This document shows positions 38,411 to 58,344 of a stretch of DNA of 64,000 nt, piece by piece. Made by a program: the position numbers and the translations under genes. Source of the stretch: Candidatus Zhuqueibacterota bacterium (lineage in GTDB: Bacteria > Zhuqueibacterota > Zhuqueibacteria > Oceanimicrobiales > Oceanimicrobiaceae); NCBI GenBank assembly GCA_029262055.1, contig JAJDAD010000112.1:62001-126000 (forward strand), written 5' to 3'. The first letter of the stretch is position 1, and the number at the start of each line of letters is the position of its first letter. The notes beneath the pieces were generated by a model. It was not told where the DNA came from. It ran no database searches and worked only from the letters and a program-made list of their open reading frames with translations.

Positions 38411-40174
38411 ATGTCAAGCGCAACCGTAGAAACCACGAAGGGGCCGCCGGCCGCAGTTGCCGGAAAGAAGACCGGCACAAAGACTGAAACTGAACTGCTG
38501 ACGGGTTCGCAGATTCTCCTCAAGGCGTTATCCGATGAGAAGGTAGATCTCGTTTTCGGCTATCCGGGTGGCGTGGTTTTGGGACTTTATGACGATTTGT
38601 TCAAGGCCTCGACGCCGTTTCGCCACGTGCTGGTCCGGCACGAGCAAGGGGGCACGCACGCAGCCGACGGCTACGCACGCGCAACCGGCAAGACGGGCGT
38701 GGTTCTGGTGACCTCAGGCCCGGGCGCGACCAACACGGTGACCGGGATCGCTACCGCTTACATGGACTCCATCCCCATGGTGATTTTTACGGGCCAGGTT
38801 CCGGCGGGTTTGATCGGCAATGACGCCTTTCAGGAAGCGGACATCGTCGGCATTACCCGGCCGATCACCAAGCACAGCTATCTGGTCAAGAAAGTCGAGG
38901 ATCTGGAACAGGTCGTGCACGAGGCATTTTTCATCGCGCGCACCGGGCGGCCGGGCCCTGTGCTGGTGGATCTCCCGAAAGATATGCTTTGTGCCAAAAG
39001 CAAGTACAAGGGCAAGAAACAGATCGCCATCAAGGGTTACAGTTGCAGCCAGAACGGCACGGTCAAGAGAATTGCCGAGGCCGCTGAACTGCTTAGCAAT
39101 GCCAAGCGGCCGCTGATTTATGCCGGTGGCGGTATCGTCCTGGGGGAAGCGTCCGATGAGTTGCGCGCGTTGGCCGTCAAGACCAACATACCGGTTACGA
39201 CGACCTTGATGGGACTGGGCACCTTCCCGGAATCGAACGCGCAGGCGCTGGGGATGCTGGGAATGCACGGCACCTGGTATGCGAACATGGCCATCAGCGA
39301 GTGCGACGTCTTGCTGGCGGTAGGCGCGCGGTTTGATGACCGCGTCACCGGCCGGCTCGACGGCTTTTCTCTCAAATCAAAGAAGATTCACATCGACATC
39401 GACCCGTCCTGCCTGAACAAGAATGTCAATGTGGAAATACCGATTCAGGGCGATGTTAAGACCATTCTGCCCGATCTGACCAGGATGGTTAGAAAGCCCG
39501 AAACCGAGGAATGGTGGCAAACGATCTGGCAGTGGCGAAAGGAACATCCCCTGCGTTATGCCAAATCGGAGAAGATTATTTCGCCGCAATTTGTAATCGA
39601 GAAAGTTTCCGAGGTCACCGGCGGCGACGCCATCGTGGTGACGGATGTCGGGCAGCACCAAATGTGGTCGGCGCAGTATTATAAGTTCAACCATCCGCGC
39701 TCCTGGCTAACTTCCGGGGGACTGGGGACCATGGGCTACGGCTTTCCGGCGGCCATGGGCGCTGCCATGGGGCGTCCGGAGCGAACGGTTTTCTGCATCT
39801 CGGGAGACGGCGGCTTCCAGATGACGACGTTTGAGCTGGCTACCGCGGTTGAGCACAAGGTTCCGGTCAAAGTGGTCGTACTGAATAACGGCTACTTGGG
39901 CATGGTGCGGCAATGGCAGGAAATGTTTTACGGCCAGCGCTATTCTTCCTCTCATCTGGCCAGCGGCAATCCTGATTTTGTGCAGCTGGCGCAAAGTTAC
40001 GGCGCGGTCGGTCTGCGGGCAACTACACCGGATCAGGTTATGCCGGTTTTGCAGCAAAGTATGGAAACTTCCGACAAGCCGGTGGTCATGGAGTTCATGG
40101 TGGCTGAAGAAGAAAATGTCTTCCCCATGGTTCCGGCCGGGGCAGCTTTGACTGAGATGGTTGATACCGACTAG
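38411..40174 (+). CDS. ilvB: acetolactate synthase, catalytic subunit
   Basis: 587 residues, full length for IlvB/IlvI. ThDP enzyme motifs: GYPGGVVLGLYD, VRHEQGGTHAADGYARATGK (catalytic Glu), GGGIVLGEASDE and the ThDP/Mg site GDGGFQMTTFELATAVEH...LNN. It condenses two pyruvates to acetolactate, or pyruvate with 2-oxobutanoate. An N-terminal extension of about 30 residues precedes the conserved region. A terminator-like hairpin overlaps the stop codon before ilvN. Confidence 0.97.
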   Translation: MSSATVETTKGPPAAVAGKKTGTKTETELLTGSQILLKALSDEKVDLVFGYPGGVVLGLYDDLFKASTPFRHVLVRHEQGGTHAADGYARATGKTGVVLVTSGPGATNTVTGIATAYMDSIPMVIFTGQVPAGLIGNDAFQEADIVGITRPITKHSYLVKKVEDLEQVVHEAFFIARTGRPGPVLVDLPKDMLCAKSKYKGKKQIAIKGYSCSQNGTVKRIAEAAELLSNAKRPLIYAGGGIVLGEASDELRALAVKTNIPVTTTLMGLGTFPESNAQALGMLGMHGTWYANMAISECDVLLAVGARFDDRVTGRLDGFSLKSKKIHIDIDPSCLNKNVNVEIPIQGDVKTILPDLTRMVRKPETEEWWQTIWQWRKEHPLRYAKSEKIISPQFVIEKVSEVTGGDAIVVTDVGQHQMWSAQYYKFNHPRSWLTSGGLGTMGYGFPAAMGAAMGRPERTVFCISGDGGFQMTTFELATAVEHKVPVKVVVLNNGYLGMVRQWQEMFYGQRYSSSHLASGNPDFVQLAQSYGAVGLRATTPDQVMPVLQQSMETSDKPVVMEFMVAEEENVFPMVPAGAALTEMVDTD

Positions 40175-40196
40175 GGTGGTTCTGGTCGGTTTTTTT
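40166..40196 (+). terminator. internal terminator-like hairpin between ilvB and ilvN
   Basis: ACCGACTA (40166-40173) pairs with TGGTCGGT (40183-40190, one G-U) and is followed at once by seven T. The left arm includes the last codons and the stop of ilvB, so a ribosome at the stop would block the stem. Confidence 0.6.
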
Positions 40197-52372: not shown

Positions 52373-53527
52373 CTAACCCAGAATATTCGTCAGGGTTTGG
52401 GCTACTTTTTTCAGTTCATCCCGGGTGATCGTGAGCGGCGGCAGAAGGCGGAGAACTTTGGCTCCGGCAGGCAGCGCGAGTACGCCATCTTCCAGGAGTG
52501 CAAAAATGAAAGGTTTGACTTTTTCCTGCAGTTCGATGCCGATCATTAAACCGAGATGGCGGATTTCCCGGACCTTGGCGAGCCCCTGCCGGCGCAATTC
52601 TGCAACCAGCCAGTCGCCCTTTTCTCTTGCCTGCTCGGCCAGATTATCTGCCAGCATGAAATCGATGGCGGCGTTGGCTGCGGCGCAGGCCAGAGGATTG
52701 CCACCGAAAGTGGTTCCGTGTTTTCCGATTGCAACCTGGATCTTGTCGTTGCACAAGAGCGCGCCCATCGGGAGGCCGCCCGCGATCGCTTTCGCCAGAC
52801 AGATCATGTCGGGTTGCAGATCGAAGTGGTTGCAGGCAAACATCTTTCCTGTCCGGCAAAATCCACTCTGCACTTCATCGATGATGAGCAGGACGCCGGA
52901 ATCTCGGCAGAGCCCGGCAACGTTGCGCAGATAGTCATGAGTCGCGACGTGCACGCCGCCTTCGCCCTGAACGACTTCCAGTAAAACCGCGGCTGTAGCA
53001 TCTGTAATCTTGCTCTTCAGCTTTTCGAAATTATTGAACGGGACATGGTGGAACCCGGGCACCAGCGGCTGGAAGTCCGCCCGGTACTTTGGATTGAAGG
53101 TCGCACTCAGCGCCCCCATAGTGCGACCATGAAACCCGCGCACGGCACAGACAATTTCTGTTTTCCCGGTGGTGTATCGGGCAAATTTCAGGGCCGCCTC
53201 GACGCTCTCGGCGCCACTGTTGCAGAGGAAGACCCGCTTTGCATCTCCGGGAGCGAGTGCGGCTAATCTTTCAAGCAGTGTGCTGCGTACGTCATTGTAA
53301 AAGATTCCGGGACAGGTTATGAGCTTTGCCGCCTGACTGCTGACGGCTTCGATGACTTTGTCATTACAGTGCCCGACGTTGGCGACCCCGTTGCCGGAAA
53401 CGCAATCGACGTATTCGCGTCCGTTTTGATCCCAGACCTTTGCGTTTTTCCCCCTAACCAGAACCAGATCTCGTTTCGGGAAAAGTTCGAAGCCGAACGC
53501 TTGTTCGAGTGCTTTATAGTCGGTCAT
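52373..53527 (-). CDS. lysJ: class-III aminotransferase, LysJ/ArgD type
   Basis: 384 residues. Acetylornithine/[LysW]-aminoadipate-semialdehyde aminotransferase motifs: DCVSGNGVANVGHCN, NSGAESVEAALKFAR, IIDEVQSGFCRTG and LAKAIAGGLPMGA with the PLP Lys, then GTTFGGNPLACAA. It transaminates the carrier-bound semialdehyde using glutamate. It is the last gene of the LysW operon and overlaps lysZ by ATGA. LysW linkage makes lysJ the likely name; one enzyme may serve both lysine and ornithine branches. Confidence 0.9.
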   Translation of the reverse strand: MTDYKALEQAFGFELFPKRDLVLVRGKNAKVWDQNGREYVDCVSGNGVANVGHCNDKVIEAVSSQAAKLITCPGIFYNDVRSTLLERLAALAPGDAKRVFLCNSGAESVEAALKFARYTTGKTEIVCAVRGFHGRTMGALSATFNPKYRADFQPLVPGFHHVPFNNFEKLKSKITDATAAVLLEVVQGEGGVHVATHDYLRNVAGLCRDSGVLLIIDEVQSGFCRTGKMFACNHFDLQPDMICLAKAIAGGLPMGALLCNDKIQVAIGKHGTTFGGNPLACAAANAAIDFMLADNLAEQAREKGDWLVAELRRQGLAKVREIRHLGLMIGIELQEKVKPFIFALLEDGVLALPAGAKVLRLLPPLTITRDELKKVAQTLTNILG

Positions 53528-54315
53528 TTGATGAGTGTCCCTCCTCCGCTAAGTGCATCCTTTATGGGATGTTCCGTGCGACCATCCGCAATGACGACCG
53601 CCTCAACTCCATTGTCGAACAGCCTGGTGAGGGCAAGCAGTTTTCGCTTTATTCGTCCTGTGACCTGCTCCTCGCGTTGCTTCAGCCCGGCAACCGTCAT
53701 TTGCGGGATAAGTGAACCCGGGTCATCCGGATCATCCAGGAAGCCAGGCGCCTCGATAAGCTGGATGACAGTCTGGGCGTTCATGTTTTTTTGTAGGGCA
53801 GTAACGATGTCATCATTTTCAGAGTTGATGGCGAAGCCGTTTTCATCTACAATGGGAATGGTGAGCACCGGCACATAACCGTTCTCCAGAAGTAGTCCCA
53901 GCAGCGACCGGTTAACCTCTTGCGGTTTTCCGGATAGATCGCGCACGATTTTGAGCTTGCCGTTCTCCCGGACGCGAATGCCTTTGTTGCGTCTGCCCTG
54001 CACGACCCGGCCGTCAAGCCCGGACAGGCCAACTGCGTTAGCGCCGTGCTGCTGGAACAGTTCAACCAGGCGTTTATTGCGCAGACCGGAATAGGCCATC
54101 ATCAACAGATCCACGGCGTCTTGATCGGAATAGACGCTGCTGTAGCCAGAGACGGAGGTGAGCACTTTCTTGGGTTTGGCCAGCGCTTGTGCGAGGTTGT
54201 CCCGCAGGGCGTTGGCCCCGTGTACCACAATGTAGGACTCCCGCAGGTCTGCCAGGTCAGCAACGATGCCGGGCAGATTGATGTTTTCGCCACCGCCGAT
54301 TTTTGCTATTAGCAT
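53524..54315 (-). CDS. lysZ: [LysW]-aminoadipate/[LysW]-glutamate kinase
   Basis: 263 residues of the amino-acid kinase family, LysZ group: MLIAKIGGGENIN, VVHGANALRDNLAQ, LTSVSGYSSVYSDQ (LysZ-like rather than ArgB), VGLSGLDGRVVQGRR and NSENDDIVTALQ. It phosphorylates the side-chain carboxyl of carrier-bound aminoadipate or glutamate. The ATG at 54315 gives the family N-terminus; upstream in-frame codons fall within the amidohydrolase gene. It overlaps lysJ by four bases. Confidence 0.9.
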   Translation of the reverse strand: MLIAKIGGGENINLPGIVADLADLRESYIVVHGANALRDNLAQALAKPKKVLTSVSGYSSVYSDQDAVDLLMMAYSGLRNKRLVELFQQHGANAVGLSGLDGRVVQGRRNKGIRVRENGKLKIVRDLSGKPQEVNRSLLGLLLENGYVPVLTIPIVDENGFAINSENDDIVTALQKNMNAQTVIQLIEAPGFLDDPDDPGSLIPQMTVAGLKQREEQVTGRIKRKLLALTRLFDNGVEAVVIADGRTEHPIKDALSGGGTLIK

Positions 54316-54344
54316 TTGGTTTTCGTGTCCGGTTTGATTCTTCC

Positions 54345-54980
54345 CTAAAAGGTTGTAAGCGAGTCGTTTCGCAGTTTGTGCCAACCCGTCTCGCCCGGGT
54401 AGGGTGCGGAGCAGAGAACGGACTCGTTTGCCGACTGTTTGTAGTGCAGCGTAAAATACTCCGGGTCTTCATTAAATAATGAAGCCACGCAGGCGCCTTC
54501 CTTATCAGCGACAATAATGTTGGAGGCGCGTACAAAGTGTGTTTGCTTTTTGAGAATGCGGATTGCGGTCGCAAGTGTTTCTGACATTTGTCTGCGCGGC
54601 AAACGCAGCAACAGATTGAAGATTTTCTCAGCCCCGGTTTTCCCTTCCTGTTTTATTCTAACACCGCGCAATTCGCCGTTAAAGGCAAAGACATAGCCTT
54701 TGCCATAGAACGGCATGTTGTTTTCGATGGCAATGCCCTTGTTTTCAAAGGCGCTGCGCACGTGAGCCAGCAGGCGCGTGGTCGGTGGGAATTGCGTCAA
54801 ATCATCCTGCCAGATCGGTTTGATGTTCCTGTACAAAGTCCACTCGCCATTCTGCAAGTAGGCGCAGCCCCAGCCGTGGCCCTGATACTCCTTGCTGGCT
54901 TGGGCGACTCGTGCAAAAGAACGTAGATGTGGCCGGATGTCGAATTCCTGCTCCGTTTTTACGAATAGCAATCTACACAT
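54345..54980 (-). CDS. class-II glutamine amidotransferase/gamma-glutamyl hydrolase-like protein in the LysW operon
   Basis: 211 residues of the Ntn-type GATase-II fold. Cys2 right after Met (MCRLLFVKTE) is the expected nucleophile and fixes the start, which overlaps the upstream ligase gene by 22 bases. Other family-like blocks are GHGWGCAYLQNGEWTLYRN, LLAHVRSAFENKG, NNMPFYGKGYVFAFNGELRG and ASNIIVADKEG. The closest family style is EgtC/Dug3, enzymes that cleave gamma-glutamyl amide bonds. No synthase domain is attached. Its place between a LysX-type ligase and LysZ suggests release of product from LysW, a job usually done by LysK, which is not in the window. That role is inference. Confidence 0.8.
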   Translation of the reverse strand: MCRLLFVKTEQEFDIRPHLRSFARVAQASKEYQGHGWGCAYLQNGEWTLYRNIKPIWQDDLTQFPPTTRLLAHVRSAFENKGIAIENNMPFYGKGYVFAFNGELRGVRIKQEGKTGAEKIFNLLLRLPRRQMSETLATAIRILKKQTHFVRASNIIVADKEGACVASLFNEDPEYFTLHYKQSANESVLCSAPYPGETGWHKLRNDSLTTF

Positions 54981-55846
54981 ACTGCCTCTGGTTGAGTGGC
55001 CGATTGGGCCGCTGCTTGCGCCACAAAGTCAATGATGTGGCCCGGGATGTCGCAGCCGGTGGCGGCGAATATGCTCTTAAACTCCATGGTGTGGTTCACT
55101 TCGTTAACCATGATCCCATCCGCAGTTTCGAACAGATCGATGCCGACGATAGCGCCGTTTACCGCTCCCGCTGCCTGTAGCGATATTTCCCTGATTTCCG
55201 GAGAAATCGGACAGGAAGTCGATCTGCCGCCACGCGCAGCGTTGGTAATCCAATGCTCAGATTCGCGGTAGGACGCAGCCAGACATTCCGAGCCAACCAC
55301 AAGGCTGCGGATGTCGCGCCCCTTCTTCTCTACATATTTTTGAATATAGTAAATCGTGTGGTTGTAGCTGCCGAGCACTTTGCGGTGCTCCAGGATGGTA
55401 AGCGCCGTCTCGCGATCGTTGATTTTTGACAGCAAGCGGCCCCACGAACCAACTGCCGGTTTGAGGACGACCGGGAAGCCCATTTCTTCCATGGCCCGCA
55501 GAGCAGCCTTCTCAGAAAATGCCACGCGGACCTCCGGCTGTGGCACTGCGTGGGTGCGCAGTGCGATGGAGGTCGCGAGTTTGTCACCGCAAATATCCAC
55601 TGTTGTAGCGGAGTTGATACATTTGACGCCGTAGCTTTCGAACAACTTGATCGCGTTCAGTGCGCGTGAGTGATTGATGCTGCGATTCAAAACCACGTCG
55701 AGATCGAACGTGTGATTGTTCACGTCAAAATGCAGCGCACGATCGTCTATTTGCACCAGCTCAATATCGGGGCGAGATTGAAAGGCACGCAGCAAGAACT
55801 TTTCTTCGGGCCGAATCAACGAATGCAGAAATCCTACTCTCATCAT
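54959..55846 (-). CDS. LysX/ArgX-type ATP-grasp ligase (paralog 1)
   Basis: About 295 residues, RimK-related. ATP-grasp blocks: [40 protein letters not shown] and a metal-binding EVNHTMEFKS. It joins the alpha-amino group of aminoadipate or glutamate to the C-terminal Glu side chain of LysW. The ATG at 55846 (or 55843) follows the lysY stop by 25 bases. It differs from the second paralog in the substrate region: HWITNAARGGRSTS here against [14 protein letters not shown]. Which is LysX and which ArgX cannot be decided from this. Confidence 0.85.
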   Translation of the reverse strand: MMRVGFLHSLIRPEEKFLLRAFQSRPDIELVQIDDRALHFDVNNHTFDLDVVLNRSINHSRALNAIKLFESYGVKCINSATTVDICGDKLATSIALRTHAVPQPEVRVAFSEKAALRAMEEMGFPVVLKPAVGSWGRLLSKINDRETALTILEHRKVLGSYNHTIYYIQKYVEKKGRDIRSLVVGSECLAASYRESEHWITNAARGGRSTSCPISPEIREISLQAAGAVNGAIVGIDLFETADGIMVNEVNHTMEFKSIFAATGCDIPGHIIDFVAQAAAQSATQPEAVCVDCYS

Positions 55847-55871
55847 TTTCTGGTTTCCTAAAAGGCCGACC

Positions 55872-56918
55872 CTAGACCGGGTGCAATCCGGGAAATTGCA
55901 GGGCGGTTGTTTCTTCAAAACCGTTCATTATGTTAAAGGCCTGCACAGCCTGTCCGGCTGCGCCTTTCATCAGGTTGTCGATTGCGCTGATGACCACCAG
56001 CCGGTCAGACTCGGGATCTTTCTCAAAGCCGATGTCACAATAGTTTGTTCCGCTCAGGATTTTGGGCTCGGGATAGCGATAGACACCGGTTTTTTCTTTC
56101 ACGATGCGGATGAAAGGTTCGGCGCCGTACTCAGCGCGCAGCAGCTTCCAAATGTCCTTTTCTTCCAGGCTTTCGTTGAGAAAGAGGTGGCAGGTGGCCA
56201 GAGCGCCGCGGACAATTCCGAGCGCGGTGGCCGAGAAGTGGATTTGGGCGGGTTGGCCAAAACTGAGTTCCTGGATCACTTCCGCGACGTGCCGGTGCCG
56301 GGTCGGTTTGTAAGAGCGAACCGTGTCACTGCGTTCGGGATGGTGGGAAGCATCGGACGGAGAGTTACCGCCTTCGCTGGAGCCGCCTTTGACTTCAACG
56401 ACGGTCTTGTGCAAATCCACCAGCCGGTTTTTGAAAAATGGATAGAGGCCGAGTATGGTGGCTGTGGCATTGCAGCCCGCGCTCGAAACGTATTTTGCCG
56501 AACGCATCTGTGCGCGGTGCAGCTCGGGAATGCCGTAAACGAAATCAGCCAGCCGGTCGGGCAATGTGTGCGGGCGCCCGTACCAGCGTTCGTACTCGGC
56601 CAGGCTGTTCAGTCTGAAATCGCCACTCAGGTCGATTATTTTGCCGGCCTTCTGCATCATCTCCGGCATAGCGGCCATGGATTTTCCGTGCGGCAGGCAA
56701 AGAAAAATGACATCGCTAGCGCCCAGCTCGGCCAGGAGACTGAACTTTAGCGATGTGATCTTGCGCAGGTTGGGATGGATCTTGAAAACGGATTTTCCAG
56801 CAAACCGCTCTGACGTAACCTGCCCTAGTTCCACATTTGGGTGGAAGAGCAGCAGGCGCAGAACTTCTCCACCTGTGTAACCGGAGCCGCCGACAATGGA
56901 TACTTTGAGTTTAGACAT
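55872..56918 (-). CDS. lysY: [LysW]-aminoadipyl/glutamyl-phosphate reductase
   Basis: 348 residues of the ArgC/LysY family: Rossmann motif [22 protein letters not shown], the catalytic Cys in [38 protein letters not shown] (the LysY-type loop) and a C-terminal [17 protein letters not shown]. It reduces the carrier-bound acyl phosphate to the semialdehyde with NADPH. The ATG at 56918 has GAGAGGA upstream and overlaps the upstream ligase gene by eight bases. Confidence 0.92.
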
Positions 56919-57765
56919 GGCGTGTTCCTCTCGCGACTGCGACTGCGTAATCCACAATCAGGCCGGGAATGTTCACTCCCGTGGTCTCGACGCTGTTCTT
57001 GAATTCCATAGTGTAGTTCACTTCGTTGACCAGCAGTCCGTTATCTGTTTCAAACAGATCGACGGCAACAATGCCTCCGCCGACTGCCTTTGCCGCGGCC
57101 ATGGACAGGCGCTGTATTTCATCAGTCACCTCGCATTTGCTGGCGACTGCGCCTCTGGCGGTGTTGGTAATCCAGTGGTCTGACGTGCGGTAGACCGCTG
57201 CCACGCACTCGTCGCCGATAACGAAGCTGCGAATGTCACGGTCTCGCTTTTCGATATATTCCTGAATGTAGAAGATGGAGTGGTGATAGGTGCCCAGAAC
57301 AGTTTTGTGCTCGAGGATGGACTCGGCAGCGTCGCGGTCGTTCACCTTTGACAACAAGCGCCCCCAGGATCCGACTGCCGGCTTGAGGACGACAGGGTAA
57401 CCCATTTCCTCGATGGCCTGCAGGGCGGATGCTTCGGTGAAGGCTACCTTTACGCGCGGCTGGGGAATGCCGGCTTTCTGCAGGGCGTCGGAGGTGAGCA
57501 GTTTGTCGCCACAGACCAGCGCCACCTGCGATTCGTTGATGCACTTGACGCCGGCGCTCTCAAACAGCTTGAGGGCATGCAGTGCGCGCGAGTGGTTGAT
57601 GCTGCGCTCCAGAACAACGTCGAAGCCAAGCCTCTTGGTACCGATGTCAAACGTCAGTTTGCGATCGTCTATCCGGACCACTTCCAGGTTGCGGCGACTG
57701 CCGCATGCTTCCAGCAACAGCTTTTCGTCTTTGCGCAATAACGAATGTAAGAAACCGATTTTCAT
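56911..57765 (-). CDS. lysX: LysX/ArgX-type ATP-grasp ligase (paralog 2)
   Basis: 284 residues, clearly related to the ligase at 54959-55846 ([60 protein letters not shown]). It is the first enzyme gene after lysW and directly precedes lysY. Two such ligases in one operon fit separate charging of aminoadipate and glutamate onto LysW, with the later enzymes shared. The assignment of the two substrates is not possible by eye. Confidence 0.87.
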
Positions 57766-57853: not shown

Positions 57854-58027
57854 TTATTCGCCCCAGTCTTCCTCTTCCTGCGGCGCCTCTGCCAGCTTGA
57901 TCGGGTTGAGGTTGGTAACCTCGAGTTCGGTGCCGCAATCCTGGCACTCGATCAGCTCACCCTGGATTGTGTCATTGGCCAAACTTACGTCTCCGCCGCA
58001 GATGGGGCATTCGATGGTCTTGCTCAT
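57854..58027 (-). CDS. lysW: amino-group carrier protein LysW
   Basis: 57 residues. A zinc finger of two CxxC pairs (ECPICGG and ECQDCGT), a short acidic body, and the hallmark C-terminal EDWGE whose last Glu is the attachment site. It shields the alpha-amino group of intermediates in lysine or arginine synthesis and guides them between enzymes. AAGGAG lies before the ATG at 58027. It is first in the operon and 88 bases ahead of the ligase gene. Confidence 0.95.
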   Translation of the reverse strand: MSKTIECPICGGDVSLANDTIQGELIECQDCGTELEVTNLNPIKLAEAPQEEEDWGE

Positions 58028-58308
58028 TTTTCACTCCTTTCTGTGTGTGAATTGTGTTTTTATGCAAAAAAAAAGCCTTTCCAAAGTACATTTGGAAAGG
58101 CTTAGTATTTGCGTGGTTCTGATTTTCTAAATACGGGTGCTTATACCTTTCCCAATGAGGCTACGTTTACCTGCCGGCCTAGGAAGATGGTTCTTCCTGC
58201 CAACGAGGTTGCTGGGCCTTACGTTGTAGCTCTTTGGGGAAACTCGGTTCATGTTTTCGTCGATTTTGGAAAGTTCCGTTGCTTTTCTATTCAGCCTGCA
58301 CGACAATT
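58028..58308 (-). promoter_or_regulatory. structured 5' leader of the LysW operon with possible antiterminator
   Basis: About 280 bases between the predicted transcription start and lysW. Besides the terminator, the RNA contains TTGGGAAAGG (58155-58146), which can pair with CCTTTCC in the terminator's left arm and would block it. It also contains TTTCCCCAA (58242-58234), which can pair with TTGGGAAA and would free the terminator. A 7-bp hairpin (AGGAAGA/TCTTCCT) lies between them near 58180-58197. This is a switch-like layout. I could not match it to a known riboswitch class. Confidence 0.55.
58066..58103 (-). terminator. intrinsic terminator inside the LysW operon leader
   Basis: On the minus strand AAGCCTTTCCAAA, a five-base loop, TTTGGAAAGGCTT (13 perfect pairs), then nine T (58074-58066). 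It ends 39 bases before lysW. No minus-strand gene lies upstream before glnA, so it can only act on the lysW transcript, as an attenuator. Confidence 0.85.
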
Positions 58309-58315
58309 GACCGAA

Positions 58316-58344
58316 AAAGTAAAGAACGTTACAAACAATGTCAA
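58316..58344 (-). promoter_or_regulatory. candidate promoter of the LysW operon
   Basis: Minus strand TTGACA (58344-58339), 17 bases, TACTTT (58321-58316). The -35 is perfect and the -10 weak. Placement gives a leader of about 280 bases. Confidence 0.5.

Follow-up and report, generated by a model that had tools for sequence, protein, structure and literature searches.

A probable ribosome-mediated transcription attenuator in the leader of a LysW operon from candidate phylum KSB1

The lysW operon and its leader

The window, which is the whole stretch of 64,000 nucleotides analysed here, carries on its minus strand a lysW gene followed by further genes of a LysW-dependent pathway, and glnA lies upstream of the lysW leader in divergent orientation. 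Leader and operon comprise the following elements, given in the direction of transcription:

58314..58344, minus strand: promoter-like site, TTGACA (58344-58339), 17 nt and TACTTTTT (58321-58314), a layout common to KSB1 relatives
58127..58252, minus strand: predicted leader ORF of 41 codons and a TAG stop, MNRVSPKSYNVRPSNLVGRKNHLPRPAGKRSLIGKGISTRI (6 Arg, 4 Lys); a short ORF is found in 9/9 lysW leaders
58234..58242, minus strand: S1, TTTCCCCAA, ORF codons 4-7, able to pair with S2 (anti-antiterminator)
58146..58155, minus strand: S2, TTGGGAAAGG, antiterminator strand, ORF codons 33-36
58091..58103, minus strand: S3, AAGCCTTTCCAAA, left arm of the terminator and alternative partner of S2
58073..58085, minus strand: S4, TTTGGAAAGGCTT, computed right arm of the terminator
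58066..58074, minus strand: T tract of the intrinsic terminator, nine T in the sequence, the first two inside the stem
58034..58040, minus strand: lysW ribosome binding site, AAAGGAG in the sequence
57854..58027, minus strand: lysW, amino-group carrier protein of 57 aa (TIGR01206, above cut-off)
52373..57765, minus strand: lysX, argC/lysY, a second lysX (argX-like), a class II glutamine amidotransferase-like gene, lysZ/argB and lysJ/argD (NCBIfam matches)

The gene order after lysW is similar in relatives. ArgJ is absent from the window's genome and from the five other searched genomes that bear the attenuator, argG is present in the window's genome and adjoins the lysW operon genes, close downstream, in genomes G002 and G005, and in the window lysW is not followed by a homocitrate synthase gene. 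Arginine is thus the likely end product, and the gene content suggests that the ornithine made by the operon most likely serves arginine synthesis. A homocitrate synthase gene does follow lysW in G005, G028, L108 and L097. Two further loci, L181 (G025) and L180 (G040), combine argJ with a lysW operon that includes homocitrate synthase and have no recognisable leader-peptide attenuator; their LysW operons are probably lysine-only.

The layout TTGAC(A/T), 17 nt and TAnnTTT stands before lysW in five KSB1 relatives, with a spacer identical to that of the window, and we infer a transcription start near 58309. Between the promoter-like site and lysW lies an intrinsic terminator with its 9-T tract (58103-58066, minus strand), which the initial annotation had described as a 13-bp stem followed by nine T, and which is indeed present: 58103-58073 reads AAGCCTTTCCAAA-TGTAC-TTTGGAAAGGCTT, giving 13 pairs and a loop of 5. 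Since glnA is divergent, no upstream gene needs a terminator in the lysW leader.

Alternative pairings and the reading frame that spans them

Upstream segments had also been proposed to form a mutually exclusive chain with the left arm of the terminator, and the computed pairings bear this out to different degrees. The S2:S3 pairing beats 991 of 1000 dinucleotide shuffles of the window leader (9/1000 as good); S1:S2 taken alone is matched by 90/1000 shuffles and is suggestive. Folded as the minus-strand transcript, the leader with its terminator is better than shuffles (z -2.9, 1/200), and S1:S2 is present in the minimum-energy fold. The statement that no known riboswitch class is recognisable was confirmed as well: at gathering thresholds, the Rfam covariance models gave no match in the whole window, the leader producing chance-level matches only, without any riboswitch among them, and the T-box covariance model did not match the leader.

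The initial annotation missed the ORF at 58252-58127, which overlies both upstream segments. S1 falls in its first codons and S2 within its last ten, the putative control codons lie between them, and 23 nt separate its stop codon from the terminator. The ORF has no clear Shine-Dalgarno sequence, and its Arg and Lys codons are scattered, with no run like the His or Trp runs of his and trp leaders; the Lys/Arg content of the window leader alone is not significant (p 0.08-0.25). Its six Arg codons (CGA, AGG three times, CGT twice) exclude CGC and CGG, the two commonest Arg codons in the window's genes, a point that was raised post hoc. The choice of sensitive control codons has been treated elsewhere (PMC1183508).

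A simple footprint model, in which a 29-nt ribosome footprint was masked stepwise along the window leader and the pairing recomputed, indicates where a ribosome could act. With no ribosome, S2:S3 is weak in this model (2.9 expected pairs). It forms when the masked A site is close to the ORF start or falls on Ala-27 to Arg-30; masked A sites at Ser-31 and all later residues of the peptide abolish it. Masked stalls at codons 16-26 yield little antiterminator because S1:S2 still forms around the masked stretch, and the Arg and Lys codons of this segment would therefore work, in the model, only if the ribosome itself prevents S1:S2.

Recurrence before lysW and before other amino-acid operons

Nine lysW leaders were compared, those of the window, L057, L100, L077, L088 and L128 (all KSB1), L108 (Calditrichota), L097 (Zixibacteria) and L099 (Anaerolineae). 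Common to all nine is a short ORF, often rich in Lys and Arg, then a terminator, then lysW. The gap between ORF and terminator is 19-43 nt (counting the first of two terminators in L108), much as in his and asd leaders, where it ranges over 24-43 nt. Promoter and terminator elements are the only sequence common to all nine: no aptamer-like conserved region was found among them, nor within the window's family (L057, L100), and by inspection the regions shared by L057, L100, L077 and L128 are the promoter and S2/S3 only. Outside close pairs, the lysW leaders offer no alignable sequence on which a covariance model could be based. When the leader was used in a DNA search of 60 relatives, essentially terminator-like matches were returned, some of them asd leaders, and the terminator region was the sole part of the leader refound before lysW. 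Most other lysW genes, including those of Ignavibacteria and Melioribacter, have no leader terminator. No Arg-type leaders were found before argG or argJ in the class, so that the attenuator seems to go with LysW operons.

Every one of the nine leaders contains a stretch able to pair with the left arm of the terminator, with 2-27 of 1000 shuffles as good; in L108 this significance pertains to the second terminator, the first being matched by 128/1000 shuffles. This Calditrichota locus has two tandem terminators between leader ORF and lysW, 155-65 nt upstream of the gene. In seven of the nine leaders the complementary segment falls within the final ORF codons; it comes just after the stop codon in L099, and after the ORF, in the first terminator, in L108. 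Taken one at a time, the leaders yield an ORF through S2 in 9-66% of their shuffles; counted together, an ORF reads through S2 in 7 of 8 independent lysW leaders (p = 0.0009 against shuffled upstream sequence, or about 0.007 by our own calculation at the same null rates without L108, whose S2 was picked by eye). By the shuffle test, the S1:S2 pairing is significant in L057, L077, L088, L128 and L097 and absent in L100 and L099. Ahead of lysW, the antiterminator pairing and the terminator are thus found again in nine genomes whose leader sequences are not conserved, and this, together with one compensatory pair, upholds the transcription attenuator proposed initially.

The compensatory pair comes from L077 and L088, two related leaders; for the window's own ORF no close relative permits a substitution test. 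A change of G to A in S2 is accompanied by C to T in S3, which converts one S2:S3 pair from G-C to A-U. A 38-nt block with Lys and Arg codons is invariant between the two; outside this block, 8 of 10 codon changes are nonsynonymous, and there is no frameshift. Pooled over the leader set, Lys and Arg make up 60 of 254 residues, versus 17% in ORFs from shuffled leaders, a modest enrichment (p = 0.004) that also holds against 1935 short ORFs from the relatives' loci (Fisher p = 0.003) and against his leaders (p = 8e-5). Reading an Arg or a Lys product from codon counts over all leaders was tried and rejected, as it gives a trend only: L077 and L088 do not fit, having more Lys than Arg, yet no homocitrate synthase was found there.

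Leaders of similar build precede other biosynthetic operons of the class. In the window's own genome, hisG (L168, G000:C26) is preceded by the ORF MLLQKYTHRPHHYHHYPHLEVGLVMRAT, an antiterminator and a terminator; no shuffle out of 300 pairs as well, S2 sits among the final codons of the ORF, 21 nt ahead of its end, and the terminator follows 37 nt after it. This is apparently a his attenuator. A His-rich ORF stands upstream in 13 of 30 hisG loci of the class, the window's genome included, and the same simple test gives no significant S2:S3 pairing for several of the other his leaders. The trpE gene of the window's genome (L246, G000:C14) has the Trp-rich leader ORF MKHLPANYFWRNWYWYYYTSSGKDSHSSSR upstream, and of 30 trpE loci in the class, about 20 have a Trp-rich ORF upstream, often with WWW or WWWW. 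Upstream of asd, three relatives have ORFs rich in Thr, Met, Lys and Ile, whose last codons contain a GGAAAGG-like S2 that is followed by a CCTTTCC terminator, and a fourth has the leader ORF MMTMSKRTDKKTKKSKYPGLD. Such asd leader ORFs (L003, L004, L005 and L017, e.g., MKIKSTTKTMKMTMMKTMTCTCGFWKGGL), each with a terminator before the aspartate-semialdehyde dehydrogenase gene, are apparently aspartate-family attenuators. Judged from these sequences, leader-peptide attenuators whose codons correspond to the product appear to be in use in the class, and it is therefore natural to read the lysW leader likewise.

Two other kinds of terminator were seen. At L014 and L023 a terminator lies shortly upstream of a pyrR-like gene, with no obvious leader peptide. 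In the window, a terminator-like hairpin with a T tract (40166-40190, plus strand) lies 23 nt before an ORF starting MKHTISVYFQNNFNALSRIIGLFSGRGFEIDSVSFGEAKE that looks like the small subunit of acetolactate synthase; this hairpin is possibly inside an operon.

The sensor and its relation to known systems

We propose that the LysW-dependent ornithine/arginine operon is probably controlled by its leader through ribosome-mediated (leader-peptide) transcription attenuation, a reading built on the terminator, the S2:S3 alternative and its recurrence, the ORF across the switch and the sister leaders in the genome and class. It is very likely that the switch is real, and the sensor is most likely a translating ribosome, which would stall on the leader, and not a ligand-binding RNA. 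With no ribosome on the leader, S1 would pair with S2, leaving S3 free for S4, and transcription would terminate. When charged Arg-tRNA (and probably also Lys-tRNA) is scarce, the ribosome would stall at Arg or Lys codons before S2; S1 would then be blocked, S2:S3 could form in place of the terminator, and the operon would be transcribed. When charged tRNA is plentiful, the ribosome would reach the last codons and cover S2, so that S3:S4 forms and transcription ends before lysW. As to the signal, we infer mainly charged Arg-tRNA, which is the best explanation, and perhaps Lys-tRNA also. Among the candidates named in the initial annotation, arginine fits best and lysine second; glutamine finds no support.

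We advance only tentatively, as a rather doubtful extension, that the leader is a two-input attenuator, in which a peptide with both Arg and Lys codons, and with both switch strands inside its ORF, would open the shared lysine/arginine carrier-protein operon upon shortage of either amino acid, the Arg:Lys codon ratio tracking the presence of homocitrate synthase. Within the window's family, the leader is Arg-rich where homocitrate synthase is absent (the window, L057) and Lys-rich where it is present (L100).

A ligand might be sensed by the RNA directly. The region closed off by S1:S2 is stable and multi-branched, and the succession of P1, antiterminator and terminator is the layout of many riboswitches; in a riboswitch of a new class, the terminator would be favoured when this fold binds arginine, lysine or an intermediate of the pathway. 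The aptamer of a riboswitch is the best conserved part of its leader, whereas the sequence enclosed by S1:S2 is conserved neither in the family members L057 and L100 nor elsewhere, has no Rfam match, and is itself an open reading frame, which renders this possibility decidedly unlikely. Given the lack of a conserved aptamer even within the family, the short ORF that spans the switch, and the similar His, Trp and Thr/Met/Lys leaders of the class, we find no support for the initial framing as an unrecognised riboswitch.

The switch between S2:S3 and S3:S4 is silent on what moves it, and an RNA-binding protein, or uncharged tRNA acting directly in a T-box-like manner, could do so while the ORF is incidental, as the frequency of ORFs through S2 in single shuffled leaders (9-66%) would permit. 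The leader does not match the T-box model, however, chance would rarely place the ORF through S2 in seven of eight leaders at once (p = 0.0009), and similarly built leaders with His, Trp or Thr/Met/Lys codons stand ahead of hisG, trpE and asd; we hold such a mechanism to be unlikely. Terminators with the core AAGCCTTTCC/GGAAAGGCTT being common in the class, the hairpin might also be an ordinary terminator or a weak site of constitutive attenuation, in which case no regulated switch would exist. Yet the divergent glnA leaves no upstream gene in need of a terminator, and the left arm has a second partner, to judge from the segments complementary to it in nine leaders and from the compensatory change, such that this last explanation appears very improbable.

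Ribosome-mediated attenuation, the reading that we prefer, would turn an anonymous attenuator into a specific prediction, namely that arginine, and perhaps lysine, is sensed through translation of a 41-codon ORF. It also suggests that leader-peptide attenuation is a general means of control over the amino-acid operons of candidate phylum KSB1, a phylum for which no earlier report of it was found in the literature searched. Moreover, the enzymes by themselves hardly reveal the amino acid that a LysW operon produces, and leader codons may offer evidence on this point.

In Thermus thermophilus, the lysine (aminoadipate) gene cluster was reportedly described by Tsubouchi and colleagues (J Biol Chem, 2005) as subject to leader-peptide attenuation; the likeness lies in a leader peptide controlling LysW-type pathway genes. 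In other phyla, lysine riboswitches (L-box) and T-box leaders likewise attenuate Lys or Arg genes at the RNA level; unlike them, the lysW leader matches no Rfam family. Closer in build are the classical trp, his, thr, leu and phe attenuators of Proteobacteria and the trp attenuator of Actinobacteria (PMC1262725), which have a short ORF with control codons, a mutually exclusive antiterminator and intrinsic terminator, and an operon for the amino acid concerned. In apparent contrast to these, the lysW leader has S2 within the final ten ORF codons and S1 within the first ones, with the control codons between them; its Arg and Lys codons are scattered and form no run, and its host is an uncultured bacterium of candidate phylum KSB1. 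A 2010 survey had leader-peptide systems known only from Proteobacteria and Actinobacteria, and added hisS/hisZ of Firmicutes (PMC2965389). The orf34 leader of speF in Salmonella is alike in its 34-codon ORF with Arg codons, where stalling at low arginine switches the RNA structure, and differs in acting through Rho and mRNA decay, with no intrinsic terminator, on a polyamine gene (PMC6386406). The lysW leader most likely belongs with the known leader-peptide attenuators (PMC1262725, PMC2965389), the Arg-codon leader of speF being a further precedent (PMC6386406).
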